Of a stretch of DNA of 64,000 nt, positions 30,301 to 64,000 are shown in pieces. Both the position numbers and the translations under genes were made by a program. The DNA comes from Pegea sp. RAD2-039 (Eukaryota > Chordata > Thaliacea > Salpida > Salpidae). The stretch is taken from NCBI GenBank assembly GCA_034620365.1, contig JAQGEQ010000343.1, forward strand, positions 557,895 through 621,894, in the 5' to 3' direction. The stretch's first letter is position 1. Each line of letters opens with the position of its first letter. The notes under the pieces are model-generated. The model did no database searches. It worked only from the letters and a program-made list of their open reading frames with translations, and was not told the DNA's origin.

Positions 30301-32428
30301 AGTTGATGATGTAGTTGATGATGTAGTTGATGACGTAGTTGATGAAGTAGTTGATGATTTAGTTGATGACGTAGTTGATGAAGTAGTTGATGAAGTAGTT
30401 GATGATGTAGTTGATGATGTAGTTGATGACGTAGTCGATGATGTAGTTGATGATGTAGTTGATGACGTAGTTGATGACGTAGTTGATGATTTAGTTGATG
30501 AAGTAGTTGATGAAGTAGTTGATGATTTAGTTGATGATGTAGTTGATGAAGTAGTTGATGAAGTAGTTGATGATGTAGTTGATGATGTAGTTGATGATGT
30601 AGTCGATGATGTAGTTGATGATGTAGTTGATGACGTAGTTGATGACGTAGTTGATGACGTAGTTGATGACGTAGTTGGTGATGTAGTTGATGAAGTAGTT
30701 GATGATGTAGTCGATGATGTAGTTGATGATGTAGTTGATGACGTAGTTGATGACGTAGTTGATGACGTAGTTGATGATTTAGTTGATGAAGTAGTTGATG
30801 ACGTAGTTGATGATGTAGTTGATGGTGTGGTTGATGAAGTAGTTGATGATGTAGTTGATGATGTAGTTGATGACGTAGTTGATGAAGTAGTTGATGATTT
30901 AGTTGATGACGTAGTTGATGAAGTAGTTGATGAAGTAGTTGATGATGTAGTTGATGATGTAGTTGATGATGTAGTCGATGATGTAGTTGATGATGTAGTT
31001 GATGACGTAGTTGATGACGTAGTTGATGACGTAGTTGATGACGTAGTTGGTGATGTAGTTGATGAAGTAGTCGATGATGTAGTTGATGATGTAGTTGATG
31101 ACGTAGTTGATGACGTAGTTGATGACGTAGTTGATGATTTAGTTGATGAAGTAGTTGATGACGTAGTTGATGATGTAGTTGATGGTGTGGTTGATGAAGT
31201 AGTTGATGATGTAGTTGATGATGTAGTTGATGATGTAGTTGATGACGTAGTTGATGATTTAGTTGATGACGTAGTTGATGAAGTAGTTGATGAAGTAGTT
31301 GATGATGTAGTTGATGATGTAGTTGATGACGTAGTTGATGAAGTAGTTGATGATGTAGTTGATGATGTAGTTGATGAAGTAGTTGATGAAGTAGTTGATG
31401 ATGTAGTTGATGAAGTAGTTGATGATGTAGTTGATGATGTAGTTGATGAAGTAGTTGATGATGTAGTTGATGGTGTGGTTGATGATGTAGTTGATGATTT
31501 AGTTGATGACGTAGTTGATGAAGTAGTTGATGAAGTAGTTGATGATGTAGTTGATGACGTAGTTGATGACGTAGTTGGTAATTCGGTAATTTTCTATTTC
31601 TGACATCACAGTTCGACAAACTGATTTTGTATCTAGCAAACATTGTCAACGTAGAACAGGTGGAATGCTTCTTGCATGTCATTAATGCTTCTCACTTGTG
31701 ATGACGTCATTATTTTATGACGACAATTTTACTTAAGAATATGAAACTTTAATGACGTCACGTACACGCTTGCATGTGCCTTTAAATGTTTTTTTTCCGA
31801 AATTTAAATTTTTTATCGCAAAAAATTTAAATCTTTGGATGTTTTATCATAACCCGATCTTCATCTGATCTTCATCTAATCTCTGTTCAGTCCTTTGACT
31901 TCCTGCATGAAATTCATCTTCAAATTGTCCAATCATTAATTTTGAAACTTCTAACAGATTACACTTGGGATGTTAGCGACTGGGCCAAATCCGCTGACCC
32001 AGCATCCAATCAAATCAAAGTTGTGGACCACGTGACCAACGTACCAGTCAACCGTCATCGAGTCACAGCAAACTCTCGCAAATACAGGAAGGGCCGCAAA
32101 CCAACCACCGACCCTAAAGTAACTTGCTGTGGCTGCGGACCACTTTGTCCTGACACAACTTTCACAGGGCCGCAACTGCCATGCAACACGAGAAGCTGTC
32201 GAAGTTGTGACGTCATCATTCAGTAATGATGAAAATCGAAGACGTCACGTGACGTCACAGCAAAACAACCTACCCACGCTAACAGGGCGTGACAGAGTAC
32301 CCTTGACATCACACTCATCAAATACAACTGAGAAGAATTTTGCGGATTCAGAATGCGATGATGACGATCGCTTTCCGCTGCCTCTTGATTACCAGCAATT
32401 ATCACGCTTCAGTAAACAAGTTCCTTGA
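27315..32428 (+). CDS. unrecognised Ser-rich protein, last exon cut by in-frame TGA
   Basis: Exons that keep phase: 27315-27326, 27740-27862, 27915-28006, a 23-base microexon 31637-31659, 31958-32118, 32168-32428. They give 223 residues starting MIIKETRNPL. The product is Ser/Gln-rich, then basic (HRVTANSRKYRKGRK), then Ser/Asp-rich. No domain is recognised; there is no signal peptide or membrane span. The ATG at 27281 was rejected because it leads out of phase with exon 2. Intron 1 contains a SINE remnant, intron 3 the 12-bp array. After TGA (32426-32428) the same frame stays open to TAA at 32693-32695. All downstream copies have CGA here, so the ancestral protein probably had about 312 residues, ending SSLSDLEE. 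First exon and microexon are the least certain parts. Confidence 0.6.
27385..27665 (-). mobile_element. 5'-truncated copy of the tRNA-Val-headed SINE body
   Basis: Reverse complement matches the body at 13067-13365: GCATGGGCAACAACTGGAT-like text at about 27430-27450, GTTCATAAAAAACC at about 27640-27655, and a 3' end running into TTATTATTA. No tRNA-like head can be seen, so it is 5' truncated or diverged. It sits in intron 1 of the Ser-rich gene, on the opposite strand. Confidence 0.7.
28010..31577. repeat. 12-bp array GTAGTTGATGAN starting at a splice donor
   Basis: About 297 tandem units of GTAGTTGATGAN occupy nearly all of intron 3 (28007-31636). The array begins within the splice donor itself, GTAAGTTGATGACG, and ends near GTAGTTGGTAATTCGG. 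Variant units (GTGGTTGATG, TTTAGTTGATG, GTAGTCGATG, GTAGTTGGTG) recur in blocks; one block repeats after about 520 bases, another after about 370, so there are higher-order repeats. Because 12 is divisible by three and the unit has no stop in some frames, open frames of 644 and 438 codons (VVDDVVDE) and 568 on the other strand (HQLRHQL) arise. I treat them as artefacts. Confidence 0.93.
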
Positions 32429-32695
32429 TATGAGAGCCAAAAAGACTTCATAAATGATGACTTCAAGATGCCTGATTCAAATTCAAGGTCTTACTCCTCT
32501 TTACTTGGAGCAGAAATCGATTCTTCAATCCCAACTCCTGGAAGAGTGAGGAAGACTCGATTTCATCCAGACATGTATCTTCCACCAGCTCTAAATCCTA
32601 CTGATGAAGTTGCCAACAAATCATATCGCTCTGATGATCATTATGATGTAAACAACCAATTAATGATGTCCTCATTGTCAGATTTGGAAGAATAA
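32411..32695 (+). pseudogene. unit 1 terminal-exon segment, interrupted by TGA
   Basis: Frame SKQVP-stop-YESQKDFINDDFKMPDSNSR and on to SLSDLEE-TAA. The stop replaces CGA at a CpG, a C-to-T change; a Gln-Glu to Gln-Lys change follows. The rest of the frame is intact. This segment is contiguous with the Ser-rich gene. Confidence 0.75.
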
Positions 32696-33002
32696 CATTC
32701 CCTTTCACTTTATTTTTATCTTTTTGTTTTTATTTTTTTATTTTTCTGTTTTGTTTATTCACAACGCTGCTGCTTCAATCCAAAAGTTAGATAAAGATTA
32801 AATACATTGAAGGATACCCCTGTCACTGTGATGTCGTTGACATCAAATAGTTAGTCAAAACAGATACTAAAATAATTCTCAATTAGTGCCTTTTAGTAAT
32901 CAGCAACGAAAACAGTTTCTGAAAATAAGCAGAGACTTTATACTTGGATTTAGAAGATCTAAACAATGCGATGTATAATTGTCAAAGTTTAAAAGTTTTA
33001 TA

Positions 33003-33008
33003 AATAAA
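33003..33008 (+). promoter_or_regulatory. candidate poly(A) signal for the Ser-rich gene
   Basis: AATAAA followed by GATTTTGCAACAATTATGG, about 310 bases after the TAA; kept in every tandem unit (for example 38873, 45109, 51349). Confidence 0.35.
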
Positions 33009-34026
33009 GATTTTGCAACAATTATGGTTTATGATGTTTTTGAATTATTATAACTTAGATTGAGAATTTTGAACAAAATTTAATTGGTGTTTAAAATTGT
33101 AAAAATTAGAAAACTTCTGAATAATTTTGATAAGATTTTGAATATTCTAAAACAGATAGACTTTCGTTAACATTTGTCAACTTGTAAGCAAACAAATGAT
33201 ACTGAAACAAAACAAAAAACTTGTTTAAGGAATAATTTTTGATTAAGACTTGCTTAGTATATTTACAATTTGTTTTATTTCATCTTTAAATACATTAAAA
33301 CATTTTAACTTGAAAGTTTATGATAACTTGTTTAACACACAAAAAATAATCGAAAATAATTTGTAAAATGCTGTAGCAGAACTTTCAACATCTAATGCTC
33401 AAATATATTTGTAATATTTGCATAACCACATTAAACAAATCAAAGATGTTTTTACATAATTTCAACAACAATTTTAAACTTTCTTTTTGCTGAAAAGTTG
33501 TAAGTTATTATAGTTAACGACGTTTTTCAATAATTATAATAATATATAGTTAACATGAATATGTCAAAAACGATTTATTATCTTTTAAATCTGTTCAGAC
33601 GTTAGTACAAAAACTATACTCATTACGTACTTATAAAAAACTTTTCACTTTTTAATTGTACTTCTTTAAAAAATTTCCTTATTTATTAGGAAACTAAAGT
33701 GGGTCAACAAAACTCCTAACCGATATAATATCAAATTTTGACAACTTTTATAGAAGCAATAAAGTTTTTAGTCACTATATTATGTTGTTAAGTATATCAA
33801 TTGATGTTAGAAGGCATTACTAATTTCATAAAAAAAATGAATGAAATAAAAATCTATTTTTTAACTTCTTATCAATTTGAAAATGAATTTCAAAAATCTT
33901 TTGTATAAAAGAATGACTTTTTGAGAAAACATTGATCATGTTTTGAACAACTAAAGACTTTTATTTTGGTCACAACTATATTAGTCTATTTCTTCTTCCG
34001 ATTATTTAGATAAACTCACTTACTAA

Positions 34027-34343
34027 GTTTATTTATTTCAATAAATGCGAAGGAGGGTACCTGAAAAGAGTACCTCTCGCTAATGCACATTCTCACAAAT
34101 AACTTCTATTTAGCCCAAAATATAGAAAGCAAAAGATGTAACACATAGTATTTCGGTATCACTCAAAGCATATAACAGTGAACAATTATATGGGATGTTA
34201 ATAATATGAAAACGAGAAAAAAAACACAGTTTAGAAATGACAGTGTTGGCAATATTATAACGGTTCAACTTCTGCTTGAACAATGCGAGTGACTTCGATA
34301 TGGCAATGTCTGATGGCAGCTGATTCCATGTATTAATTGTACG
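34027..34343 (-). mobile_element. 5'-truncated LINE 3' end, unit 1
   Basis: Minus strand encodes TWNQLPSDIAISKSLALF and KQKLNRYN, the C-terminal WN-LP motif typical of non-LTR retrotransposon reverse transcriptase polyproteins. The frame goes on to FYILG-stop. Next comes a 3' UTR with GGTACTCTTTTCAGGTACC (a 5-bp hairpin), CCTCCTTCGCATTTATTG and AAATAAATAAA. Only about 320 bases remain, so it is 5' truncated and inactive. Confidence 0.75.
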
Positions 34344-35204
34344 GTATTAATTAATTTACACACAAATTTTTGTCGATAATTTTTTTCCGATAAATTTTAT
34401 CTATATTTGATATCGTGTTATTATCAAAATGTAATTTTAGCTCTAAGCATAAATCTATTAAATTATTCTCTTTGAGAAGAATCAGTTCTTTTTCAATCCT
34501 TGGTTCATTCTGATACATTTTTCATCTTGTTATACATCTTGTCATATCAAACCTATTTACAGTAAAGCTTAATATTGATTTTATTATATTACGCATTCAA
34601 ATAATTATTTATCTATTCAAAAAGCTACTGCGCATGAGAAATGTAACAGCTATTTATTATAAGAACAGCAATCAGCTGTACTGTTGCTTATTTAGCAAGT
34701 CGTTAAAAGAGTTCTAAATCTTTCCAGTAGAATATTGTTTAGTTATCATAAACCAACGATTTCCAACAAAGACTCTTTTTGAGTTTTGCTGCTTGTTTTT
34801 AGATTAAAACTCGAAATAGTTTTTCTGTGCTACGATTTTAACAAATATTTTTTAGGTTGTAATGATCTAATTGTATCGCGTATGTATTAATGAATATTTT
34901 GCGAATAAATATAGATATCATCAAGCTAATTAAATGTTAAACATCTCTTATCACTCCTTAAAAGTGTGAATTATTGAACGAGAACAATCGTTCTTTCAAA
35001 TAATCGATTAAAATAGAAAATTTTTAAGCAAAATAAATGACCTGATTTTATTTTTGAATCGTATATTATTGTATTAAATATTCTTAATATAAAAAATAAT
35101 AACTTAACCGCTTACGTAGTTTCAAACAAGCATAAGTTCACTTTCACGTTACTACACTAGTCCTTTTCAGGTATAATTCTCTAAGCTGTCATCATCTTTT
35201 AGCA

Positions 35205-35284
35205 ATGGGTTTTGGGCATCGAAAAAGTGAATCTGGTATTAAGCAATTAGATAGCTTTTTGGAAAGCAAAAGCTACATTGACGG
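35205..35284 (+). pseudogene. EF1-beta first coding exon, unit 1 (degenerate)
   Basis: Encodes the N-terminal MGFG..KS..GI..LDSFLESKSYIDG of elongation factor 1-beta, the nucleotide exchange factor for EF1-alpha. It is preceded by a TTTTAG acceptor two or three bases before ATG and followed by a GTTAGTG donor. This copy reads MGFGHRKS instead of MGFGDLKS. No later EF1-beta exon occurs in the unit, so it cannot make the factor. Confidence 0.8.
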
Positions 35285-36061
35285 GTTAGTGTTTTTTTTA
35301 TCAAAATGTATAAATATTCAATGTTTTGTATATTCAAGTTTAAATTGAAATTCGGATTTTTCTGGTTAATTTATTTTTGATATAATCTAATTTTTTTGTA
35401 ACTATTTAGTAAAGTAATTTTTTCTATAATAAATATATTATTAAAGTATATATATTATATATTAATGTATATATATTATATACTATTAAAATATATTAGT
35501 AAAGTATATTATTTTTTAATATTTTTAAAGTAACTTTATATTTTTTTATATATATTAAGATGTGTTTATAAATGTTTGATTTTGTGCTTTTATTCAAAAT
35601 GTAATTGCATGCCATTTTATAAACATTTATAAACTCTTGAATTAAACTTCATAATTTTTTTATTCATAAATAAATTTTATAATTTTTCTTACTTTATGAC
35701 CTTCATGAATTTTTAAATTTCACATCTGCTAAAGATTCATATTAACTTCTTGAATTAAGCATAAATTAATTTATTAAACTAATTTTCACTTCTTAGTAAT
35801 GTTTGATAACTCCTTCTTGTAGAACAACTTTTAAACTTTTTAATCAACTTCAAAGTTTGAATTTGATTTTTATATTGTTGTGCTTATATTGCAGATCAAC
35901 TTCAAAGTTTGAATTTGATTTTTATATTGTTGTGTTTGCTGATCAACTTCAAATTACTTGAGATCCGATTAAGAATCCGTTATCTGATCTTTGAAAATTG
36001 AACAATTAACTTCAAATATTTATCAAAAGTTGGTTTTTTAGAAGCAAGATATAAAAATTAC

Positions 36062-38180
36062 TTTTAATTGAGAAAAAAGAAGTCCAAGCTGCTCTTTCTC
36101 TTCATTTATAGTTTGTATATCTGAAAATTTCTTTGTATTTTCAGCAATTTTTTCTTCTAGTTTCACTTGTAAGCTTAAAATTTCTCTCTTACAGAAAATT
36201 ATGCTTAACATAAAAGCAGATTTGATTTCTACCTTTTCATTTAATCTCTGCAATATAAACTGTTTAGCTAAAATATTAAATCAATCACAAACCACTTATT
36301 TGAGATTGAAAAAAGTCTAACTTTCTATTTAATTATTTTATTATCTTTTCTTTGCCAACCATTTCACCTTCAACGCTAGATTTATTTCTATTCAACGAAG
36401 TTACCAAACCCTCAAGCTTTTGAAGTTCAATTTTAGAATTGAATAATTCTATTCCTATATTATTCAAAGCATATATCAATTGTTTGTTCTGTTGAAAATA
36501 AAATAAGTCTTTTATAAATATCAAATAAGTGAAAATGTGATTTGAAAACCTGTTTTTCAAGCTCCTTAAGGCTATTAGATTCTTTTGAAATGGGAGTTTT
36601 TTTCAGTCTGGGCTAAGCAACTTGACTTACTGTTAAGTTTTCTTTAGAGTTGCTTCTTGATCTGATGTTATCAATTTCATTATTCTTTTCTTCCAGTTGA
36701 AAGTTGCATACCTTGATTTTATTATTCAAATCATTTATAATGATTAAAAATCAAAAAAAGTTGAAATAGAAAAGAAGAAAAATTTTGAAAACTGATTCCT
36801 ACATTGTAGTTTGTTGTGTTGTTCCAAAACGTTACCTTCATGCTCTCTTATATCTTTTATCTTATATTCTTTTCTTCCAATTTCAAAGAAATAAATAAGA
36901 GATGTTATCTGTCGAACATCGATATCCACTTGATTCAGTCGCATCCACGTGACACATCTCATCAGGAGCACATACGTCATTAATGACGTCACAAATCGGT
37001 TGACATTTATTTCCCTTATAACCTTTGGGGCAAATACATTCTGGAGCCCGCGTGAAATGGGGCGTGAGAACGCTTCGCGTTTGTGACGTCACAGGTAGCT
37101 CATTTGAAGTGTTTCCTAATTTGATGACTGACAAACATTTTCCAGCACATGACGTCAATTTACATTCAGTACCGATGACGTCACGAACGATGACGTCTAC
37201 TTACTTAAGTCCTTGAGACTTAACTTCATCATCTTCTCCACAATCTTCCTGCCAAGACCTTCACTTTTTTCCACCATTTCCTACAAACAGAATTCGATAT
37301 TCAAACTCGAAAACCAACTAACCGTTTTTCATCTTCAACTTTATCGATTTTTTGCGACAATCTCTTATTTTGAACTTCTAACTCTTTCTTCTCATCGAGC
37401 AACTCTAAGCTACAGAATAAGTCAACTTCAAATTGATCTCTTTAACTTCTCACTTTTTAGAAGTTAATTTTTCATAAGAAACTTGGAGTTGTTTGGCGCT
37501 GAGAGCAGGAGATGTTATCCGTCGATTCATGTCTTTCATCTTTGCTTCGTTTGCCTGAAATGTTTTAAAGGAATGAAGATTAGTTTGTAATTATGTAGAA
37601 TCACTCTCAAATATAGAATTATTTGTGTCTCAGAAGAAATGAATTTAGTTTTAAGTAACAATTTCGTTTTATGCTTGATCATCAATAAAATTAGATGAAA
37701 TCAAATCTACTTTTTCCATCGATTGAAAGTTATATTAAAAACTGAATTTGATAAAAACCTCAAACTATCTGAAATTTGATGAAAATTAAACTTGATGATT
37801 TTCTTTTTAACATATTTTGTAGAATGAAGATTATCATGAAAAAATACAAGCTTAAATATAAAGAAAAAATTAAACTCTTAATATCAACAGACCTATACAA
37901 GTGTTTGTTGGTCTTCTATGATCTGATCAACTAGGTTCTTTTGGTTGATTAATCTAAAATATAAACAAATTAATAATAATTGAGAATAAATATAAATATG
38001 ACTTCTTTGTTGATAACTGCGGTGTTAGCAAGCATTTTTCAATGACTGGTGCCAATGGTATATCCACATCACAACTTTCACCTTTAAATATTCAAATAAT
38101 TAAATTTCAGATAAACTAGAAATTTAAAACTTTCTATTTTCACCTGGTGGTGCTAGTGGTTCATGAGAATATATATTCAT
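36062..38180 (-). pseudogene. multi-exon coiled-coil protein gene fragment, unit 1
   Basis: From the ATG at 38180 the minus strand gives a run of short exons: MNIYSHEPLAPPG; an exon ending near IEK; INQKNLVDQIIEDQQ; ANEAKMKDMNRRITSPALSA; LELLDEKKELEVQNKRL; EMVEKSEGLGRKIVEKMM. Then come VCNFQLEEKNNEIDNIR, LKKTPISKESNSLKELEKQ, NKQLIYALNNIGIELF..KIELQKLEGL, and KREILSLQVKLEEKIAENTKKF..EEKEQLGLLFSQLK. Heptad-like Leu/Ile with Glu/Lys shows coiled coil. Private damage: one T fewer in the run near 38035 shifts the frame, and a TAG near 37893 replaces GAG. The gene is cut at its 3' end in every unit. Family not recognised. Confidence 0.65.
36900..37199 (-). pseudogene. EGF-like exon, unit 1
   Basis: Minus-strand frame with DVIVRDVIGTECKLTSCAGK, then CICPKGYKGNKCQ and CDVINDVCAPDEMCHV...GYRCS. 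The C-x-C and GY-G--C spacing is that of EGF-like domains of extracellular proteins. It lies among coiled-coil exons, which is odd for one protein; it may come from another gene. Four GACGTC motifs sit in it. The boundaries are uncertain. Confidence 0.55.
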
Positions 38181-38283
38181 GTTGCCGAGTTTGTTTATAA
38201 AAATGTAACTGTTATCAAAAACCTATCTCTAAACAAACAAGTTTAAATAATACTCAGAATTAAGATGCATATGTAGCCATATC

Positions 38284-38558
38284 AGTAAACAAGTTCCTCG
38301 ATATGAGAGCCAAGAAGACTTCATAAATGATGACTTCAAGATGCCTGATTCAAATTCAAGGTCTTACTCCTCTTTAGTTGGAGCAGAAATCGATTCTTCA
38401 ATCCCAACTCCTGGAAGACTCGATTTCATATAGACATGTATCTTCCACCAGCTCTAAATCCTACTGATGAAGTTGCCAACAAATCATATCGCTCTGATGA
38501 TCATTATGATGTAAGCAACCAATTAATGATGTCCTCATTGTCAGATTTGGAAGAATAA
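38284..38558 (+). pseudogene. terminal-exon copy with 10-bp deletion, unit 2
   Basis: Has CGA instead of the TGA of unit 1. A 10-base deletion between two GAAG repeats (at about 38416, GGAAGACTCG) shifts the frame before TRFHPDMYL. Reads SSLVGAE where odd units read SSLLGAE. Confidence 0.75.
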
Positions 38559-39889
38559 CATTCCCTTTCACTTTATTTTCATCTTTTTGTTTTTATTTTT
38601 TTATTTTTCTATTTTGTTTATTCACAACGCTGCTGCTTCAATCCAAAAGTTAGATAAAGATTAAATACATTGAAGGATACCCCTGTCACTGTGATGTCGT
38701 TGACATCAAATAGTTAGTCAAAACAGATACTAAAGTAATTCTCAATTAGTGCCTTTTAGTAATCAGCAACAAAAACAGTTTCTGAAAATAAGCAGAGACT
38801 TTATACTTGGATTTAGAAGATCTAAACAATGCGATGTATAATTGTCAAAGTTTAAAAGTTTTATAAATAAAGATTTTGCAACAATTATGGTTTATGATGT
38901 TTTTGAATTATTATAACTTAGATTGAGAATTTTGAACAAAATTTAATTGGTGTTTAAAATTGTAAAAATTAGAAAACTTCTGAATAATTTTGATAAGATT
39001 TTGAATATTCTAAAACAGATAGACTTTCGTTAACATTTGTCAACTTGTAAGCAAACAAATGATACTGAAACAAAACAAAAAACTTGTTTAAGGAATAATT
39101 TTTGATTAAGACTTGCTTAGTATATTTACAATTTGTTTTATTTCATCTTTAAATACATTAAAACATTTTAACTTGAAAGTTTAAGATAACTTGTTTAACA
39201 CACAAAAAATAATCGAAAATAATTTGTAAAATGCTGTAGCAGAACTTTCAACATCTAATGCTCAAATATATTTGTAATATTTGCATAACCACATTAAACA
39301 AATTAAAGATGTTTTTACATAATTTCAACAATAATTTTAAACTTTCTTTTTGCTGAAAAGTTGTAAGTTATTATAGTTAACGACGTTTTTCAATAATTAT
39401 AATAATATGTAGTTAACATGAATATGTCAAAAACGATTTATTATCTTTTAAATCTGTTCAGACGTTAGTACAAAAACTATACTCATTACGTACTTATAAA
39501 AAACGTTTCACTTTTTAATTGTACTTCTTTAAAAAATTTCCTTATTTATTAGGAAACTAAAGTGGGTCAACAAAACTCCTAACCGATATAATATCAAATT
39601 TTGACAACTTTTATAGAAGCAATAAAGTTTTTAGTCACTATATTATGTTGTTAAGTATATCAATTGATGTTAGAAGGCATTACTAATTTCATAAAAAAAA
39701 TGAATGAAATAAAAATCTATTTTTTAACTTCTTATCAATTTGAAAATGAATTTCAAAAATCTTTTGTATAAAAGAATGACTTTTTGAGAAAACATTGATC
39801 ATGTTTTGAACAACTAAAGACTTTTATTTTGGTCACAACTATATTAGTCTATTTCTTCTTCCGATTATTTAGATAAACTCACTTACTAA

Positions 39890-40205
39890 GTTTATTTATT
39901 TCAATAAATGCGAAGGATGGTACCTGAAAAGAGTACCTCTCGCTAATGCACATTCTCACAAATAACTTCTATTTAGCCCAAAATATAGAAAGTAAAAGAT
40001 GTAACACATAGTATTTCGATATCACTCAAAGCATATAACAGTAAACAATCACATGGAATGTTAATAATATGAAAACGAGAAAAAAAACACAGTTTAGAAA
40101 TGACAGTGTTGGCAATATTATAACGATTCAACTTCTGCTTGAACAATGCGAGTGACTTCGACATGGCAATGTCTGATGGCGGCTGATTCCATGTATTAAT
40201 TCTAC
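39890..40205 (-). mobile_element. LINE 3' end, unit 2
   Basis: Copy of the truncated LINE of unit 1. It keeps SKSLALFKQKLNRYN; in the tail GGAGGG became GGATGG next to the hairpin. Confidence 0.7.
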
Positions 40206-41067
40206 GGTATTAATTAATTTACAAACAAATTTTTGTCGATAATTTTTTTCCGATAAATTTTATCTATATTTGATATCGTGTTATTATCAAAATGTAATTT
40301 TAGCTCTAAGCATAAATCTATTAAATTATTCTCTTTGAGAAGAATCAGTTCTTTTTCAATCCTTGGTTCATTCTGATACATTTTTCATCTTGTTATACAT
40401 CTTGTCATTTCAAACCTATTTACAGTAAAGCTTAATATTGATTTTATTATATTACGCATTCAAATAATTATTTATCTATTCAAAAAGCTACTGCGCATGA
40501 GAAATCTAACAGCTATTTATTATAAGAACAGCAATAAGCTGTACTGTTGCTTATTTAGCAAGTCGTTAAAAGAGTTCTAAATCTTTCCAGTAGAATATTG
40601 TTTAGTTATCATAAACCAACGATTTCCAACAAAGACTCTTTTTGAGTTTTGCTGCTTGTTTTTAGATTAAAACTCGAAATAGTTTTTCTGTGCTACGATT
40701 TTAATAAATATTTTTTAGGTTGTAATGATCTAATTGTATCGCGTATGTATTAATGAATATTTTTCGAATAAATATAGATATCATCAAACTAATTAAATGT
40801 TAAACATCTCTTATCACTCCTTAAAAGTGTGAATTATTGAACGAGAACAATCGTTCTTTCAAATAATCGATTAAAATAGAAAATTTTTAAGCAAAATAAA
40901 TGACCTGATTTTATTTTTGAATCGTATATTATTGTATTAAATATTCTTAATATAAAAAATAATAACTTAACCGCTTACGTAGTTTCAAACAAGCATAAGT
41001 TCACTTTCACTTTACTACACTAGTCCTTTTCAAGTATAATTCTTTAAGTTGTCATCATCTTTTAGCG

Positions 41068-41147
41068 ATGGGTTTTGGAGATCTAAAAAGTGAATCTGGT
41101 ATTAAGCAATTAAATAGCTTTTTGGAAAGCAAAAGCTACATTGACGG
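41068..41147 (+). pseudogene. EF1-beta first coding exon, unit 2
   Basis: Reads MGFGDLKSESGIKQLN and so on to SYIDG, the sequence closest to known EF1-beta, with acceptor and donor intact. No downstream EF1-beta exon follows. Confidence 0.8.
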
Positions 41148-42305
41148 GTTAGTGTTTTTTTTATCAAAATGTATAAATATTCAATGTTTTGTATATTCAA
41201 GTTTAAATTGAATTTCGTTTTTTTCTGGTTAATTTATTTTTGATATAATCTAATTTTTTTGTAACTATTTAGTAAAGTAATTTTTTCTATAATAAATATA
41301 TTATTAAAGTATATATATTATATATTAGTAAAGTATATTATTTTTTAATATTTTTAAAGTAACTTTAATATATTATTTTGTATTTTGAATCAGTTGTTTG
41401 TCAGAATTTCTAGTTGGATTTTTATATATTTGTACTTATAATATTATAAATTAGTTTATAAATTGTTTAAATTTATGTTTATTATATAAATTGTTTATTA
41501 TGAATTTTTTGTTGGTCTTTTTTGACTGATAAACATTTTTTTTTGATGTTTTTTATAATTTTTCTTACCAAATGAACTTTTTCATTTCAAATCTGCTAAA
41601 GATTTATATAATAAAAGTTTATTATGCTTCACAATTTGAAAAAAATATTATTGACTATTTATTATAACGTTAATCAAATATATCATCTATTTTCTTTGTT
41701 GAGAATTATATAATTTTTAAATTTGGTTTATGTTTTATGTATAGAAATTTTAAACTTTCCTTTTTTTTGTTATTTTGTATTAATCTCTAAAAAATATATT
41801 AAGATGTGTTTATAAATGTTCGATTTTGTGCTTTTATTCAAAATGTAATTGCATGCCATTTTATGAACATTTATAAACTCTTGAATTAAACTTCATAATT
41901 TTTTTATTCATAAATAAATTTCATAATTTTTCTTACTTTATGACCTTCATGAATTTTTAAATTTCACATCTGCTAAAGATTCATATTAACTTCTTGAATT
42001 AAGCATAAATTAATTTATTAAACTAATTTTCACTTCTTAGTAATGTTTGATAACTCCTTCTTGTAGAACAACTTTTAAACTTTTTAATCAACTTCAAAGT
42101 TTGAATTTGATTTTTATATTGTTGTGCTTATATTGCAGATCAACTTCAAAGTTTGAATTTGATTTTTATATTGTTGTGTTTGCTGATCAACTTCAAATTA
42201 CTTGAGATCCGATTAAGAATCCGTTATCTGATCTTTGAAAATTGAACAATTAACTTCAAATATTTATCAAAAGTTGGTTTTTTAGAAGCAAGATATAAAA
42301 ATTAC

Positions 42306-50663: not shown

Positions 50664-50766
50664 GTTGCCGAGTTTGTTTATAAAAATGTAACTGTAATCA
50701 AAAACCTATCTCTAAACAAACAAGTTTAAATAATACTCAGAATTAAGATGCATATGTAGCCATATC

Positions 50767-51041
50767 AGTAAACAAGTTCCTCGATATGAAAGCCAAGAAG
50801 ACTTCATAAATGATGACTTCAAGATGCCTGATTCAAATTCAAGGTCTTACTCCTCTTTAGTTGGAGCAGAAATCGATTCTTCAATCCCAACTCCTGGAAG
50901 ACTCGATTTCATCCAGACATGTATCTTCCACCAGCTCTAAATCCTACTGATGAAGTTGCCAACAAATCGTATCGCTCTGATGATCATTATGATGTAAGCA
51001 ACCAATTAATGATGTCCTCATTGTCAGATTTGGAAGAATAA
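50767..51041 (+). pseudogene. terminal-exon copy with 10-bp deletion, unit 4
   Basis: The same 10-base deletion and SSLVGAE variant as unit 2. YESQ reads TATGAAAGC here, as in unit 6. Confidence 0.75.
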
Positions 51042-52371: not shown

Positions 52372-52685
52372 AGTTTATTTATTTCAATAAATGCGAAGGA
52401 GGGTACCTGAAAAGAGTACCTCTCGCTAATGCACATTCTCACAAATAACTTCTATTTAGCCCAAAATATAGAAAGTAAAAGATGTAACACATAGTATTTC
52501 GATATCACTCAAAGCATATAACAGTGAACAATTATATGGGATGTTAATAATATGAAAACAAGAAAAAAAACACAGTTTAGAAATGACAGTGTTGGCAATA
52601 TTATAACGGTTCAACTTCTGCTTGAACAATGCGAGTGACTTCGATATGGCAATGTTTGATGGCGGCTGATTCAATGTATTAATTG
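52372..52685 (-). mobile_element. LINE 3' end, unit 4
   Basis: Copy of the truncated LINE; WNQLPSD has become NQPPSN through point changes. Confidence 0.7.
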
Positions 52686-53551
52686 TACGGTATTAATTAA
52701 TTTACACACAAATTTTTGTCGATAATTTTTTTCCGATAAATTTTATCTATATTTGATATCGTGTTATTATCAAAATGTAATTTTAGCTCTAAGCATAAAT
52801 CTATTAAATTATTCTCTTTAAGAAGAATCAGTTTTTTTTTCAATCCTTGGTTCATTCTGATACATTTTTCATCTTGTTATACATCTTGTCATATCAAACC
52901 TATTTACAGTGAAGCTTAATATTGATTTTATTATATTACGCATTCAAATAATTATTTATCTATTCAAAAAGCTACTGCGCATGAGAAATCTAACAGCTAT
53001 TTATTATAAGAACAGCAATAAGCTGTACTGTTGCTTATTTAGCAAGTCGTTAAAAGAGTTCTAAATCTTTCCAGTAGAATATTGTTTAGTTATCATAAAC
53101 CAACGATTTCCAACAAAGACTCTTTTTGAGTTTTGCTGCTTGTTTTTAGATTAAAACTCGAAATAGTTTTTCTGTGCTACGATTTTAACAAATATTTTTT
53201 AGGTTGTAATGATCTAATTGTATCGCGTATGTATTAATGAATATTTTTCGAATAAATATAGATATCATCAAGCTAATTAAATGTTAAACATCTCTTATCA
53301 CTCCTTAAAAGTGTGAATTATTGAACGAGAACAATCGTTCTTTCAAATAATCGATTAAAATAGAAAATTTTTAAGCAAAATAAATGACCTGATTTTATTT
53401 TTGAATCGTATATTATTGTATTAAATATTCTTAATTTAAAAAATAATAACTTAACCGCTTACGTAGTTTCAAACAAGCATAAGTTCACTTACACTTTACT
53501 ACACTAGTCCTTTTGAAGTATAATTCTCTAAGTTGTCATCATCTTTTAGCG

Positions 53552-53631
53552 ATGGGTTTCGTGGATCTGAAAAGTGAATCTGGTATTAAGCAATTAAATA
53601 GCTTTTTGGAAAGCAAAAGCTACATTGACGG
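53552..53631 (+). pseudogene. EF1-beta first coding exon, unit 4
   Basis: Reads MGFVDLKSESG, as unit 3. Confidence 0.8.
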
Positions 53632-54562
53632 GTTAGTGTTTTTTTTATCAAAATGTATAAATATTCAATGTTTTGTATATTCAAGTTTAAATTGAAATTC
53701 GGATTTTTCTGGTTAATTTATTTTTGATATAATCTAATTTTTTTGTAACTATTTAGTAAAGTAATTTTTTCTATAATAAATATATTATTAAAGTAAAGTA
53801 TATATATTTTATATTAATGTATATATATTATATACTATTAAAATATATTAGTAAAGTATATTATTTTTTAATATTTTTAAAGTAACTTTAATAAATTATT
53901 TTGTATTTTGAATCAGTTGTTTGTCAGAATTTCTAGTTGGATTTTTATATATTTGTACTTATAATATTATAAATTAGTTAATAAATTGTTTAAATTTATA
54001 TTTATTATATAAATTGTTTAATATGAATTTTTTGTTGGTCTTTTTTGACTGATAAACATTTTTTTTAATTTTAATTGTATATATATTATTTTATTCAAAA
54101 TGTAATTGCATGCCATTTTATAAACATTTATAAACTCTAGAATTAAACTTCATAATTTTTTTATTCATAAATAAATTTTATAATTTTTCTTACTTTATGA
54201 CCTTCATGAATTTTTAAATTTCACATCTGCTAAAGATTCATATTAACTTCTTGAATTAAGCATAAATTAATTTATTAAACTAATTTTCACTTCTTAGTAA
54301 TGTTTGATAACTCCTTCTTGTAGAACAACTTTTAAACTTTTTAATCAACTTCAAAGTTTGAATTTGATTTTTATATTGTTGTGCTTATATTGCAGATCAA
54401 CTTCAAAGTTTGAATTTGATTTTTATATTGTTGTGTTTGCTGATCAACTTCAAATTACTTGAGATCCGATTAAGAATCCGTTATCTGATCTTTGAAAATT
54501 GAACAATTAACTTCAAATATTTATCAAAAGTTGGTTTTTTAGAAGCAAGATATAAAAATTAC

Positions 54563-56672
54563 TTTTAATTGAGAAAAAAGAAGTCCAAGCTGCTCTTTCT
54601 CTTCATTTATAGTTTGTATATCTGAAAATTTCTTTGTATTTTCAGCAATTTTTTCTTCTAGTTTCACTTGTAAGCTTAAAATTTCTCTCTTACAAAAAAT
54701 TATGCTTTACATAAAAGCAGATTTGATTTCTACCTTTTCATTTAATCTCTGCAATATAAACTGTTTAGCTAAAATATTAAATCAATCACAAACCACTTAT
54801 TTGAGATTGAAAAAAGTCTAACTTTCTATTTAATTATTTTATTATCTTTTCTTTGCCAACCATTTCACCTTCAAAGATAGATTTATTTTTATTCAACGAA
54901 GTTACCAAACCCTCAAGCTTTTGAAGTTCAATTTGAGAATTGAATAATTCAATTCCTATATTATTCAAAGCATATATCAATTGTTTGTTCTGTTGAAAAT
55001 AAAATAAGTCTTTTATAAATATCAAATAAGTGAAAATGTGATTTGAAAACCTGTTTTTCAAGCTCCTTAAGGCTATTAGATTCTTTTGAAATGGGAGTTT
55101 TTTTCAGTCTGGGCTAAGCAACTTGACTTACTGTTAAGTTTTCTTTAGAGTTGCTTCTTGATCTGATGTTATCAATTTCATTATTCTTTTCTTCCAGTTG
55201 AAAGTTGCATACCTTGATTTTATTATTCAAATCATTTATAATGATTAAAAATCAAAAAAAGTTGAAATAGAAAATAAGAAAAATTTTGAAAAATGATTCC
55301 TACATTGTAGTTTGTTGTGTTGTTCCAAAACGTTACCTTCATGCTCTCTTATATCTTTTATCTTATATTCTTTTCTTCCAATTTCAAAGAAATAAATAAG
55401 AGATGTTATCTGTCGAACATCGATATCCACTTGATTCAGTCGCATCCACGTGACACATCTCATCAGGAGCACATACGTCATTAATGACGTCACAACTCGG
55501 TTGACATTTATTTCCCTTATAACCTTTGGGGCAAATACATTCTGGAGCCCGCGTGAAATGGGGCGTGAGAACGCTTCGCTTTTGTGACGTCACTGGTAGC
55601 TCATTTGAAGTGTTTCCTAATTTGATGACTGACAAACATTTTCCAGCACATGACGTCAATTTACATTCAGTACCGATTACGTCACGAACGATGACGTCTA
55701 CTTAAGTCCTTGAGACTTAACTTCATCATCTTCTCCACAATCTTCCTGCCAAGACCTTCACTTTTTTCCACCATTTCCTACAAACAGAATTCGATATTCA
55801 AACTCGAAAACCAACTAACCGTTTTTCATCTTCAACTTTATCGATTTTTTGCGACAATCTCTTATTTTGAACTTCTAACTCTTTCTTCTCATCGAGCAAC
55901 TCTAAGCTACAGAATAAGTCAACTTCAAATTGATCTCTTTAACTTCTCACTTTTTAGAAGTTAATTTTTCATAAGAAACTTGGAGTTGTTTGGCGCTGAC
56001 AGCAGGAGATGTTATCCGTCGATTCATGTCTTTCATCTTTGCTTCGTTTGCCTGAAATGTTTTAAAGGAATGAAGATTAGTTTGTAATTATGTAGAATCA
56101 CTCTCAAATATAGAATTATTTGTGTCTCAGAAGAAATGAATTTAGTTTTAAGTAACAATTTCGTTTTATGCTTGATCATCAATAAAATTAGATGAAATCA
56201 AATCTACTTTTTCCATCGATTGAAAGTTATATTAAAAACTGAATTTGATAAAAACCTCAAACTATCTGAAATTTGATGAAAATTAAACTTGATGATTTTC
56301 TTTTTAACATATTTTGTAGAATGAAGATTATCATGAAAAAATACAAGCTTAAATATAAAGAAAAAATTAAACTCTTAATATCAACAGACCTCTACAAGTG
56401 TTTGTTGGTCTTCTATGATCTGATCAACTAGGTTCTTTTGGTTGATTAATCTAAAATATAAACAAATTAATAATAATTGAGAATAAATATGACTTCTTTG
56501 TTGATAACTGCGGTGTTAGCAAGCATTTTTTCAATCACTGGTGCCAATGGTATATCCACATCACAACTTTCACCTTTAAATATTCAAATAATTAAATTTC
56601 AGATAAATTAGAAATTTAAAACTTTCTATTTTCACCTGGTGGTGCTAGTGGTTCATGAGAATATATATCCAT
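54563..56672 (-). pseudogene. coiled-coil gene fragment, unit 4
   Basis: As unit 2; NKNKSIFEGE replaces NKNKSSVEGE, shared with unit 5. Confidence 0.62.
55401..55698 (-). pseudogene. EGF-like exon, unit 4
   Basis: EGF-like frame with QPSCDV in place of QPICDV; one of the GACGTC motifs is lost (GATTACGTCA). Confidence 0.55.
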
Positions 56673-56775
56673 GTTGCCGAGTTTGTTTATAAAAATGTAA
56701 CTGTTATCAAAAACCTATCTCTAAACAAACAAGTTTAAATAATACTCAGAATTAAGATGCATATGTAGCCATATC

Positions 56776-57060
56776 AGTAAACAAGTTCCTCGATATGAGA
56801 GCCAAGAAGACTTCATAAATGATGACTTCAAGATGCCTGATTTAAATTCAAGGTCTTACTCCTCTTTACTTGGAGCAGAAATCGATTCTTCAATCCCAAC
56901 TCCTGGAAGAGTGAGGAAGACTCGATTTCATCCAGACATGTATCTTCCACCACCTCTAAATCCTACTGATGAAGTTGCCAACAAATCGTATCGCTCTGAT
57001 GATCATTATGATGTAAACAACCAATTAATGATGTCCTCATTGTCAGATTTGGAAGAATAA
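56776..57060 (+). pseudogene. intact terminal-exon copy, unit 5
   Basis: Open frame; MPDLNSR instead of MPDSNSR, and LPPPLN instead of LPPALN (shared with unit 6). Confidence 0.7.
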
Positions 57061-58394
57061 CATTCCCTTTCACTTTATTTTTATATTTTTGTTTTTATTT
57101 TTTTATTTTTCTGTTTTGTTTATTCACAACGCTGCTGCTTCAATCCAAAAGTTAGATAAAGATTAAATACATTGAAGGATACCCCTGTCACTGTGATGTC
57201 GTTGACATCAAATAGTTAGTCAAAACAGATACTAAAATAATTCTGAATTAGTGCCTTTTAGTAATCAGCAACGAAAACAGTTTCTGAAAATAATCAGAGA
57301 CTTTATACTTGGATTTAGAAGATCTAAACAATGCGATGTATAATTGTCAAAGTTTAAAAGTTTTATAAATAAAGATTTTGCAACAATTATGGTTTATGAT
57401 GTTTTTGAATTATTATAACTTCGATTGAGAATTTTGAACAAAATTTAATTGGTGTTTAAAATTGTAAAAATTAGAAAACTTCTGAATAATTTTGATAAGA
57501 TTTTGAATATTCTAAAACAGATAGACTTTCGTTAACATTTGTCAACTTGTAAGCAAACAAATGATACTGAAACAAAACAAAAAACTTGTTTAAGGAATAA
57601 TTTTTGATTAAGACTTGCTTAGTATATTTACAATTTGTTTTATTTCATCTTTAAATACATTAAAACATTTTAACTTGAAAGTTTAAGATAACTTGTTTAA
57701 CACACAAAAAATAATCGAAAATAATTTGTAAAATGCTGTAGCAGAACTTTCAACATCTAATGCTCAAATATATTTGTAATATTTGCATAACCACATTAAA
57801 CAAACCAAAGATGTTTTTACATAATTTCAACAATAATTTTAAACTTTCTTTTTGCTGAAAAGTTGTAAGTTATTATAGTTAACGACGTTTTTCAATAATT
57901 ATAATAATATATAGTTAACATGAATATGTCAAAAACGATTTATTATCTTTTAAATCTGTTCAGACGTTAGTACAAAAACTATACTCATTACGTACTTATA
58001 AAAAACTTTTCACTTTTTAATTGTACTTCTTTAAAAAATTTCCTTATTTATTAGGAAACTAAAGTGGGTCAACAAAACTCCTAACCGATATAATATCAAA
58101 TTTTGACAACTTTTATAGAAGCAATAAAGTTTTTAGTCACTATATTATGTTGTTAAGTATATCAATTGATGTTAGAAGGCATTACTAATTTCATAAAAAA
58201 AATGAATGAAATAAAAATCTATTTTTTAACTTCTTATCAATTTGAAAATGAATTTCAAAAATCTTTTGTATAAAAGAATGACTTTTTGAGAAAACATTGA
58301 TCATGTTTTGAACAACCAAAGACTTTTATTTTGGTCATAACTATATTAGTCTATTTCTTCTTCTTCCGATTATTTAGATAAACTCACTTACTAA

Positions 58395-58707
58395 GTTTAT
58401 TTATTTCAATAAATGCGAAGGAGGGTACCTGAAAAGAGTACCTCTCGCTAATGCACATTCTCACAAACAACTTCTATTTAGCCCAAAATATAGAAAGTAA
58501 AAGATGTAACACATAGTATTTCGATATCACTCAAAGCATATAACAGTAAACAATCACATGGAATGTTAATAATATGAAAACGAGAAAAAAAACACAGTTT
58601 AGAAATGACAGTGTTGGCAATATTATAACGGTTCAACTTCTGCTTGAACAATGCGAGTGACTTCGATATGGCAATGTCTGATGGCAGCTGATTCCATGTA
58701 TTAATTC
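58395..58707 (-). mobile_element. LINE 3' end, unit 5
   Basis: Copy of the truncated LINE with the WNQLPSD motif intact. Confidence 0.7.
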
Positions 58708-59572
58708 TACGGTATTAATTAATTTACACACAAATTTTTGTCGATAATTTTTTTCCGATAAATTTTATCTATATTTGATATCGTGTTATTATCAAAATGT
58801 AATTTTAGCTCTAAGCATAAATCTATTAAATTATTCTCTTTGAGAAGAATCAGTTCTTTTTCAATCCTTGGTTCATTCTGATACATTTTTCATCTTGTTA
58901 TACATCTTGTCATTTCAAACCTAATTACAGTAAAGCTTAATATTGATTTTATTATATTACGCATTCAAATAATTATTTATCTATTCAAAAAGCTACTGCG
59001 CATGAGAAATCTAACAGCTATTTATTATAAGAACAGCAATAAGCTGTACTGTTGCTTATTTAGCAAGTCGTTAAAAGAGTTCTAAATCTTTCCAGTAGAA
59101 TATTGTTTAGTTATCATAAACCAACGATTTCCAACAAAGACTCTTTTTGAGTTTTGCTGCTTGTTTTTAGATTAAAACTCGAAATAGTTTTTCTGTGCTA
59201 CGATTTTAACAAATATTTTTTAGGTTGTAATGATCTAATTGTATCGCGTATGTATTAATGAATATTTTTCGAATAAATATAGATATCATCAAACTAATTA
59301 AATGTTAAACATCTCTTATCACTCCTTAAAAGTGTGAATTATTGAACGAGAACAATCGTTCTTTCAAATAATCGATTAAAATAGAAAATTTTTAAGCAAA
59401 ATAAATGACCTGATTTTATTTTTGAATCGTATATTATTGTATTAAATATTCTTAATATAAAAAATAATAACTTAACCGCTTACGTAGTTTCAAACAAGCA
59501 TAAGTTCACTTACACTTTACTACACTAGTCCTTTTGAAATATAATTCTCTAAGTTGTCATCAGCTTTTAGCG

Positions 59573-59652
59573 ATGGGTTTTGGAGATCTAAAAAGTGAAT
59601 CTGGTATTAAGCAATTAGATAGCTTTTTGGAAAGCAAAAGCTACATTGACGG
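59573..59652 (+). pseudogene. EF1-beta first coding exon, unit 5
   Basis: Reads MGFGDLKSESGIKQLDSFLE; canonical N-terminus and donor intact. Confidence 0.8.
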
Positions 59653-60582
59653 GTTAGTGTTTTTTTTATTAAAATGTATAAATATTCAATGTTTTGTATA
59701 TTCAAGTTTAAATTGAATTTCAGATTTTTCTGGTTAATTTATTTTTGATATAATCTAATTTTTTTGTAACTATTTAGTAAAGTAATTTTTTCTATAATAA
59801 ATATATTATTAAAGTATATATATGATATATTAATGTATATATATTATATACTATTAAAATATATTAGTAAAGTATATTATTTTTTAATATTTTTAAAGTA
59901 ACTTTAATAAATTATTTTGTATTTTGAATCAGTTGTTTGTCAGAATTTCTAGTTGGATTTTTATATATTTGTACTTATAATATTATAAATTAGTTAATAA
60001 ATTGTTTAAATTTATATTTATTATATAAATTGTTTAATATGAATTTTTTGTTGGTCTTTTTTGACTGATAAACATTTTTTTTAATTTTAATTGTATATAT
60101 ATATATTATTTTATTCAAAATGTAATTGCATGCCATTTTATAAACATTTATAAACTCTTGAATTAAACTTCATAATTTTTTTATTCATAAATAAATTTTA
60201 TAATTTTTCTTACTTTATGACCTTCATGAATTTTTAAATTTCACATCTGCTAAAGATTCATATTAACTTCTTGAATTAAGCATAAATTAATTTATTAAAC
60301 TAATTTTCACTTCTTAGTAATGTTTGATAACTCCTTCTTGTAGAACAACTTTTAAACTTTTTAATTAACTTCAAAGTTTGAATTTGATTTTTATATTGTT
60401 GTGCTTATATTGCAGATCAACTTCAAAGTTTGAATTTGATTTTTATATTGTTGTGTTTGCTGATCAACTTCAAATTACTTGAGATCCGATTAAGAATCCG
60501 TTATCCGATCTTTGAAAATTGAACAATTAACTTCAAATATTTATCAAAAGTTGGTTTTTTAGAAGCAAGATATAAAAATTAC

Positions 60583-62690
60583 TTTTAATTGAGAAAAAAG
60601 AAGTCCAAGCTGCTCTTTCTCTTCATTTATAGTTTGTATATCTGAAAATTTCTTTGTATTTTCAGCAATTTTTTCTTCTAGTTTCACTTGTAAGCTTAAA
60701 ATTTCTCTCTTACAAAAAATTATGCTTTACATAAAAGCAGATTTGATTTCTACCTTTTCATTTAATCTCTGCAATACAAACTGTTTAGCTAAAATATTAA
60801 ATCAATCACAAACCACTTATTTGAGATTGAAAAAAGTCTAATTTTCTATTTAATTATTTTATTATCTTTTCTTTGCCAACCTTTTCACCTTCAAAGATAG
60901 ATTTATTTTTATTCAACGAAGTTACAAAACCCTCAAGCTTTTGAAGTTCAATTTTAGAATTGAATAATTCAATTTCTATATTATTCAAAGCATATATCAA
61001 TTGTTTGTTCTGTTGAAAATAAAATAAGTCTTTTATAAATATCAAATAAGTGAAAATGTGATTTGAAAACCTGTTTTTCAAGCTCCTTAAGGCTATTAGA
61101 TTCTTTTGAAATGGGAGTTTTTTTCAGTCTGGGCTAAGCAACTTGACTTACTGTTAAGTTTTCTTTAGAGTTGCTTCTTGATCTGCTGTTATCAATTTCA
61201 TTATTCTTCCAGTTGAAAGTTGCATACCTTGATTTTATTATTCAAATCATTTATAATGACTAAAAATAAAAAAAAGTTGAAATAGAAAAGAAGAAAAATT
61301 TTGAAAAATGATTCCTACATTGTAGTTTGTTGTGTTGTTCCAAAACGTTACCTTCATGCTCTCTTATATCTTTTATCTTGTATTCTTTTCTTCCAATTTC
61401 AAATAAATAAATAAGAGATATTATCTGTCGAACATCGATATCCACTTGATTCAGTCGCATCCACGTGACACATCTCATCAAGAGCACATACGTCATTAAT
61501 GACGTCACAAATCGGTTGACATTTATTTCCCTTATAACCTTTGGGGCAAATACATTCTGGAGCCCGCGTGAAATGGGGCGTGAGAACGCTTCGCGTTTGT
61601 GACGTCACAGGTAGCTCATTTGAAGTGTTTCCTAATTTGATGACTGACAAACATTTTTCAGCACATGACGTCAATTTACATTCAGTACCGATGACGTCAC
61701 GAACGATGACGTCTACTTACTTAAGTCCTTGAGACTTAACTTCATCATCTTCTCCACAATCTTCCTGCCAAGACCTTCACTTTTTTCCACCATTTCCTAC
61801 AAACAGAATTCGATATTCAAACTCGAAAACCAACTAACCGTTTTCATCTTCAACTTTATCGATTTTTTGCGACAATTTCTTATTTTGAACTTCTAACTCT
61901 TTCTTCTCATCGAGCAACTCTAAGCTACAGAATAAGTCAACTTCAAATTGATCTCTTTAACTTCTCACTTTTTAGAAGTTAATTTTTCATAAGAAACTTG
62001 GAGTTGTTTGGCGCTGAGAGCAAGAGATGTTATCCGTCGATTCATGTCTTTCATCTTTGCTTCGTTTGCCTGAAATGTTTTAAAGGAATGAAGATTAGTT
62101 TGTAATTATGTAGAATCACTCTCAAATATAGAATTATTTGTGTCTCAGAAGAAATGAATTTAGTTTTAAGTAACAATTTCGTTTTATGCTTGATCATCAA
62201 TAAAATCAAATGCAATCAAATCTACTTTTTCCATCGATTGAAAGTTATATTAAAAACTGAATTTGATAAAAACCTCAAACTATCTGAAATTTGATGAAAA
62301 TTAAACTTGATGATTTTCTTTTTAACATATTTTGTAGAATGAAGATTATCATGAAAAAATACAAGCTTAAATATAAAGAAAAAATTAAACTCTTAATATC
62401 AACAGACCTCTACAAGTGTTTGTTGGTCTTCTATAATCTGATCAACTAGGTTCATTTGGTTGATTAATCTAAAATATAAACAAATTAATAATAATTGAGA
62501 ATAAATATGACTTCTTTGTTGATAACTGCGGTGTTAGCAAGCATTTTTTCAATCACTGGTGCCAATGGTATATCCACATCACAACTTTCACCTTTAAATA
62601 TTCAAATAATTAAATTTCAGATAAACTAGAAATTTAAAACTTTGTATTTTCACCTGGTGGTGCTAGTGGTTCATGAGAATATATATCCAT
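60583..62690 (-). pseudogene. coiled-coil gene fragment, unit 5
   Basis: As unit 4. One T fewer at about 61842 (CCGTTTTCATC) alters the end of the LELLDEKK exon, and six bases are missing near 61205. Confidence 0.62.
61416..61715 (-). pseudogene. EGF-like exon, unit 5
   Basis: EGF-like frame with CAEKC and CALDEMC; all cysteines kept. Confidence 0.55.
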
Positions 62691-62791
62691 GTTGCCGAGT
62701 TTGTTTATAAAAATGTAACTGTAATCAAAAACCTATCTCTAAACAAACAAGTTTAAATAATACTCAGAATTAAGATGCATATGTAGCCATA

Positions 62792-64000
62792 TCAGTAAAC
62801 AAGTTCCTCGATATGAAAGCCAAGAAGACTTCATAAATGATGACTTCAAGATGCCTGATTCAAATTCAAGGTCTTACTCCTCTTTAGTTGGAGCAGAAAT
62901 CGATTCTTCAATCCCAACTCCTGGAAGAGTGAGGAAGACTCGATTTCATCCAGACATGTATCTTCCACCACCTCTAAATCCTACTGATGAAGTTGCCAAC
63001 AAATCATATCGCTCTGATGATCATTATGATGTAAGCAACCAATTAATGATGTCCTCATTGTCAGATTTGGAAGAATAACATTCCCTTTCCCTTTCACTTT
63101 ATTTTTATATTTTTGTTTTTAATTTTTTATTTTTCTGTTTTGTTTATTCACAACGCTGCTGCTTCAATCCAAAAGTTAGATAAAGATTAAATACATTGAA
63201 GGATACCCCTGTCACTGTGATGTCGTTGACATCAAATAGTTAGTCAAAACAGATACTAAAATAATTCTCAATTAGTGCCTTTTAGTAATCAGCAACAAAA
63301 AGAGTTTCTGAAAATAAGCAGAGACTTTATACTTGGATTTAGAAGATCTAAACAATGCGATGTATAATTGTCAAAGTTTAAAAGTTTTATAAATAAAGAT
63401 TTTGCAACAATTATGGTTTATGATGTTTTTGAATTATTATAACTTAGATTGAGAATTTTGAACAAAATTTAATTGGTGTTTAAACTTGTAAAAATTAGAA
63501 AACTTCTGAATAATTTTGATAAGATTTTGAATATTCTAAAACAGATAGACTTTCGTTAACATTTGTCAACTTGTAAGCAAACAAATGATACTGAAACAAA
63601 ACAAAAAACTTGTTTAAGGAATAATTTTTGATTAAGACTTGCTTAGTATATTTACAATTTGTTTTATTTCATCTTTAAATACATTAAAACATTTTAACTT
63701 GAAATTTTAAGATAACTTGTTTAACACACAAAAAATAATCGAAAATAATTTGTAAAATGCTGTAGCAGAACTTTCAACATCTAATGCTCAAATATATTTT
63801 TAATATTTGCATAACCACATTAAACAAACCAAAGATGTTTTTACATAATTTCAACAATAATTTTAAACTTTCTTTTTGCTGAAAAGTTGTAAGTTATTAT
63901 AGTTAACGACGTTTTTCAATAATTATAATAATATATAGTTAACATGAATATGTCAAAAACGATATATTATCTTTTAAATCTGTTCAGACGTTAGTACAAA
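62792..64000. repeat. 6-kb tandem unit 6, partial at window edge
   Basis: Start of a sixth unit; the array runs past the window end, so total copy number is unknown. Confidence 0.93.
62794..63078 (+). pseudogene. intact terminal-exon copy, unit 6
   Basis: Open frame with SSLVGAE but without the 10-base deletion of units 2 and 4; LPPPLN as in unit 5. A CCCTTT duplication follows the stop. Confidence 0.7.

Follow-up and report, generated by a model that had tools for sequence, protein, structure and literature searches.

Sdic of Drosophila melanogaster is an expressed coding gene that shows signs of selection and was built from two adjacent genes (PMC7475035). Su(Ste) and petrel on the Drosophila Y make small RNAs and silence their targets (PMC9031259). 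Here we analyze a repeat array in the salp Pegea sp. RAD2-039 for which the closest known case is Sdic. The array lies in a 64,000-nucleotide stretch that was analyzed as a whole (hereafter the window; C247:557895-621894, contig JAQGEQ010000343.1) and that belongs to an assembly of 105.7 Mb in 387 contigs (GCA_034620365.1). In a self-comparison, a ~6-kb head-to-tail repeat, all on one strand, runs from position 32409 to the end of the window. This array is probably a mosaic segmental duplication that has turned into a young tandem repeat: gene pieces from several donors are joined, and the parents stand elsewhere in the assembly, on contigs C51, C1 and C248. We use C247 for the contig of the window and C4 for one further contig; positions that carry no contig label are those of the window. 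The repeat units are called U1-U6 on C247 and U7p and U8 on C248.

Five complete units occupy 32410-62792 on the plus strand and are followed by part of a sixth, as had been predicted from the letters of the window. Boundaries were taken from the self-comparison and the junction positions. The units are U1 (32410-38282, 5873 bp), U2 (38283-44524, 6242 bp, long form), U3 (44525-50765, 6241 bp, long form with an extra copy of a 52-bp tandem), U4 (50766-56774, 6009 bp), U5 (56775-62792, 6018 bp) and the first 1208 bp of U6 (62793-64000). The original prediction had the array end at 64000, but that base is the last of C247 (621894 bases) and lies inside the array, so that U6 is cut by the end of the contig. 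C248 opens with the array and holds 5457 bp of U7p and then the whole of U8 before the array exits at ~11440 (11.4 kb). Seven complete or near-complete units (U1-U5, U7p and U8) and the partial U6 are therefore assembled, with a gap between C247 and C248, and the count is a minimum. Identity in ungapped columns is 98.1-98.9% for all 28 pairs among the eight, and U1-U5 differ mutually by 1.2-1.7% substitutions plus indels. When a 30-base pattern of the unit junction was searched on both strands of the whole assembly with up to 3 mismatches, it matched six times, five on C247 and once on C248, with none on the reverse strand and none for a reversed-pattern control. The recurrence of this junction is not due to chance.

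What the unit contains had been read as a fusion of three or more genes and a long interspersed nuclear element (LINE), starting mid-exon and taking in EF1-beta exon 1 with its upstream DNA. All of these parts are present, but the left half of the unit is no fusion. In U1, 32409-35422 and 35550-35772 match C51:121711-124773 and C51:125223-125453 with order and strand preserved, which amounts to a plus-strand colinear copy with small gaps (32410-35772; C51:121712-125453) from the 3′ end of a cadherin gene to intron 1 of EEF1B. The order at C51 is last cadherin exon, 3′ region, LINE tail, EEF1B exon 1 and then EEF1B exons 2-4. Since its components are colinear at C51 as well, the left half is a copied block. 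The unit starts inside the last coding exon of this Fat-like cadherin gene (32410-32695, plus strand), the frame of which is open in the C51 parent; Pfam cadherin, laminin G and EGF domains were detected at C51. The LINE is a 5′-truncated, 320-bp 3′ tail (34028-34347, minus strand) that predates the duplication, since C51 holds it at the same place. The tail occurs in at least 34 other places at 91-94% identity among the matches listed, for which 38 of 3014 candidates were scored; a comparison of four of these places showed that a fuller copy (L006) has a reverse-transcriptase domain (RVT_1, 1e-31). The first coding exon of EEF1B lies at 35205-35284 (plus strand) with its splice donor, and its upstream DNA likewise comes from C51. 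Transcription of each unit, as had been suggested, is possible; because the bases directly before the EEF1B start codon resemble a splice acceptor by eye, the true promoter may sit further upstream. Exons 2-4 at C51 match the EF1_GNE domain (1.6e-33). EEF1B exons from exon 2 onward, whose presence intact within the array would have refuted the prediction, were found in an assembly search only at C51, apart from a diverged relative on C4, with none in the array. In seven units, 7 variable columns fall within 10 bp of EEF1B exon 1 (35213-35222 in U1 and the equivalent site in the others), a clustering reached in 0 of 5000 permutations. This cluster may reflect conversion, a complex mutation or a polishing error; a second EEF1B exon-1 donor was sought in the assembly and none was found.

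True joins occur in the right half, where, on the minus strand, scrambled and decayed HMMR pieces from C1 meet a cadherin piece from C51 and the 5′ end of SF3B2 from C248, a fourth gene that the original prediction missed. The predicted coiled-coil and EGF-like exons are here as the HMMR and cadherin pieces, but the coiled-coil run is in scrambled order on the minus strand and contains stops and altered splice sites. Along the minus strand, the SF3B2 5′ end comes first (37934-38249; C248:18841-19157, 98%), with ~70 bp of upstream DNA, exons 1-2 and the start of exon 3. It is followed by HMMR from the end of exon 8 to exon 11 (37220-37931; C1:4924873-4925582, 86%), a 286-bp piece of a large cadherin exon (36912-37197; C51:118447-118732, 98%), earlier HMMR pieces in backward order (36227-36857; C1:4923987-4924380, 4923844-4923891 and 4924645-4924840, 87-92%) and a 79% match to C1:4930354-4930607 (35930-36183). 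SF3B2, HMMR and cadherin pieces are all sense on this one strand. The 286-bp piece is EGF-like by its cysteines as judged by eye, the Pfam EGF call falling only further along the C51 exon. An HMMR_N domain is present in the C1 gene model (2.3e-14), and all 36 HMMR protein matches (E ≤0.001) are confined to C1 and the array; a second HMMR gene as a nearer donor was not found. C1:5074940 was considered as a second HMMR-like locus, and no HMMR exon was seen by eye in the 3 kb read there. SF3B2 was identified from 78 residues encoded further downstream at C248, which match a solved Splicing factor 3B subunit 2 (7.3e-40). The parent genes, for which a search had been suggested, stand at C51 for EEF1B and on C1 for HMMR.

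How did this interval become a unit? At the tandem breakpoint one base is common to left flank, unit junction and right flank, which agrees with the one or two shared bases predicted; the other joins were viewed by eye only, and a common length is claimed for the tandem breakpoint alone. Continuous with U1, the left flank is itself a copy of C51 (27670-32409, plus strand; C51:120104-121711) that holds the tail exons of cadherin together with a 12-bp minisatellite in an intron; the exons around this expanded minisatellite match C51 at 98.8% (343 bp) and 97.5% (833 bp). Before it lies DNA from the 5′ part of HMMR (26574-27657, plus strand; C1:4922135-4923244, 77-79%), comprising the upstream region, exon 1 and some of intron 1, so the DNA preceding the array is already a mosaic. 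Since U1 continues into this flank, the array appears to have arisen by duplication of an internal interval of an existing mosaic, and since the left edge runs into C51-like DNA and the right edge into the C248 flank, the unit is such an interval and not an inserted element.

Two further observations concern the left flank. The 12-bp minisatellite, in the cadherin intron copy, has 297 copies at 28010-31577, and its C51 counterpart is ~437 bp with ~36 copies. The stretch 24687-27657 is a patchwork that matches C1:4935054-4936918, C1:5074940-5075543 and C1:4922135-4923244; all three matches have the same orientation, and a widespread repeat lies between them.

Sequence has been exchanged among the units, in keeping with the unequal exchange that had been predicted. 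In a four-gamete test of seven units, 766 of the 1378 pairs from 53 informative sites were incompatible with a single tree, and indels are common to units that are not neighbours (U2 and U4; U2 and U8). The long units U2 and U3 retain C51-like sequence that U1, U4, U5, U7p and U8 are without. Each unit deviates from the majority sequence by 0.7-1.0%, and with C51 as outgroup the derived state is found in one copy at 75 of 112 polarised sites. Among biallelic ungapped sites in the seven units there are 143 private changes, 37 of them in the edge unit U1 and 13-21 in each of the other six. As an approximate order of events, judged by the identities, the HMMR pieces would be oldest and the C51 and SF3B2 pieces younger, with amplification last.

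Most reading frames in the array are broken. Stops in the units were judged in a fixed frame (an apparent stop in the C1 HMMR match is made of intron bases). An in-frame stop interrupts the HMMR exon-4 piece in all seven units that reach it, with two in U3, and in the HMMR part of the majority sequence splice sites are altered and one base is lost at the start of exon 11. The cadherin last-exon frame is broken in three of seven units (U1, U2 and U4) and open to the stop in U3, U5, U6 and U8. Where SF3B2 is joined to HMMR, the frame of the joined exon is broken in 7/7 units: translation of SF3B2 exons 1-3 through the join meets a stop soon after in six, and U1, which has lost one base in SF3B2 exon 2 and is already shifted, passes the join and stops later.

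One proposed history would account for these features. Pieces of four host genes, introns included, lie together at one site while the parents stand elsewhere: a single colinear block with the 3′ end of cadherin and the 5′ end of EEF1B, pieces of HMMR, another piece of cadherin and the 5′ end of SF3B2. Because introns are retained, the pieces were copied as DNA. The gathering may have involved template switching during replication or another non-homologous repair process, as suggested by the backward HMMR pieces and by the tandem join, where no long common sequence is present. A head-to-tail duplication would then have copied the interval that begins within the last cadherin exon and ends shortly beyond the SF3B2 piece, and the copies have since exchanged sequence. 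The outcome is an array that has no established product and is most likely a neutral, possibly transcribed repeat, which may be on its way to becoming a satellite or may supply material for a chimeric gene.

Several observations weigh against this history in its simplest form. The HMMR pieces, at 86-92% identity, look older than the other pieces, which indicates that the mosaic took shape in at least two steps. Fixed differences from C51 are patchy, with 4 in 790 sites at the unit start and 73 in 1864 further on (P=8e-8), and EEF1B exon 1 has none in 81 sites. A single duplication date does not fit this pattern, which calls for conversion with C51 or constraint; exchange with the C51 parent is possible. 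Because U8, the other edge unit, has 20 private changes, not above the inner units, the edge effect is seen on one side only. The end of C247 and the start of C248 overlap by 638 bp in unit space with 12 mismatches, a level typical between units, so the two ends appear to be different copies or alleles and, unless alleles, are not one copy cut in two. The adjacency of the two contigs is inferred from the common array and consecutive contig numbers. Finally, EEF1B exon 1 is open in 7/7 units, the SF3B2 start codon is kept in 7/7 (codon 2 is changed in U1), and, if the joined exon is skipped, 118 residues can be read without interruption in U3, U4, U7p and U8.

These last points would favor a chimeric gene family like Sdic, in which the SF3B2 5′ end drives a minus-strand HMMR fusion or EEF1B exon 1 a plus-strand one. 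It is also consistent with such a family that the minus-strand pieces share one sense and that the SF3B2 exon-1 donor is kept in all seven units. With the joined exon skipped, SF3B2 exons 1-2 (residues 1-39) are in frame with HMMR exons 9-10; besides the four units that reach the exon-11 stop, U2 has no stop up to the end of exon 10 and U5 none up to the end of exon 9, as far as the exon patterns reached in each. The short SF3B2-HMMR fusion protein that this path would encode is hypothetical. The model is broken in U1 and ends by frameshift at exon 11, and its exon-2 donor is unusual by eye in the SF3B2 parent as well. Since the copies are only 1-2% apart, there has been little time for chance frame loss, and open frames in four of seven carry little weight. 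Together with the broken joined exon, the HMMR exon-4 stops and the altered splice sites, this makes a coding family unlikely. Another possibility is a regulatory small-RNA locus like Su(Ste) and petrel. The EEF1B (plus) and SF3B2 (minus) 5′ ends face each other across ~3 kb, and two-sided transcription over the HMMR, cadherin and SF3B2 pieces would yield paired RNAs that match live genes; Su(Ste), too, is described as multiplied copies whose frames have partly decayed (PMC9031259). Promoter activity of either 5′ fragment is only putative, however, and the HMMR match is just 86-92%, and we regard such a locus as quite improbable. Equally doubtful is the bolder form of the idea, a recent regulatory locus in which facing housekeeping 5′ ends would give both-strand RNA over HMMR, the Fat-like cadherin and SF3B2, and the same minus strand would offer the fusion protein by exon skipping. 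If this were true, small RNAs from a single array could modulate several live genes.

Other explanations concern how the array was made. It could be the work of a transposon, a Pack-TIR element or a Helitron whose captured gene fragments were replicated in tandem. Both kinds of element can take up pieces of host genes. For Pack-TIR elements in animals this has been described (PMC8277862). Against such an origin, none of the 13 inverted pairs (≥14 bp) in 32300-38400 lies at the unit ends, where terminal inverted repeats were sought, and the Helitron 3′ end motif was not seen by eye at the unit borders. The edges continue into C51-like DNA and the C248 flank, the LINE tail is older and also present at C51, and the unit junction occurs nowhere else in the assembly, all of which makes a transposon origin extremely unlikely. 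The array could also be an artefact of assembly, or consist of heterozygous copies that were strung together, since a contig breaks inside it and allelic copies are indistinguishable from paralogous ones. The identical junction occurs five times within a single contig, however, and the units on either side of it are distinct from one another in indels and in 1.2-1.7% substitutions, which makes this very unlikely. A mosaic segmental duplication that became a tandem repeat remains the reading that we favor.

Elsewhere in the window, a 16-bp minisatellite of 147 copies (1930-4285) lies inside what by eye appears to be a minus-strand thioredoxin-glutathione reductase gene, and further minisatellites (5503-6004, 14591-15061 and 16048-16383) lie in or near apparent introns; the window is rich in such repeats. 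No RNA family matched in 26000-45000 at gathering thresholds, and a tRNA scan of the window with the bacterial code setting gave none. On C248:10001-20000 (L017), local positions 2800-3900 hold a single-exon gene that by eye appears nested in intron 1 of another gene; the nested gene resembles IBA57, and its host is D123/CDC123-like.

In a limited search, which supports no claim of absence from print, we found no paper on segmental duplication of gene fragments that formed a chimeric tandem satellite array. The array is a clear instance of a known route to new repeats and fusion genes, with nothing new in kind. Its donors are still readable in the same assembly, as are the donor block, the scrambled joins, the one-base junction, the exchange and a more isolated edge copy, and this makes it a useful case for work on how satellites and chimeric genes arise. 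Pack-TIR elements in animals likewise place host gene pieces in a new context and have chimeric structures (PMC8277862), but here no terminal inverted repeats were found and the edges are continuous with the flanks. Su(Ste) and petrel, like this array, consist of tandem, frameshifted, gene-derived copies with a piece of a transposon, and petrel too is a mosaic (PMC9031259); the copies here, tandem and gene-derived with broken frames, are far fewer. Sdic is closer: there too a segmental duplication of neighbouring genes became a chimeric tandem repeat, which includes a presumed pseudogene and part of a non-long-terminal-repeat retrotransposon (PMC7475035). The Pegea array shares joined host gene pieces with parents elsewhere, head-to-tail repeats and exchange between copies. 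Sdic copies undergo gene conversion with one another and with the parent (PMC7475035); in Pegea, exchange between copies is shown and conversion with the parent is possible. In contrast to Sdic, the Pegea array draws on four genes from three contigs, its right half is scrambled and most of its frames are broken.

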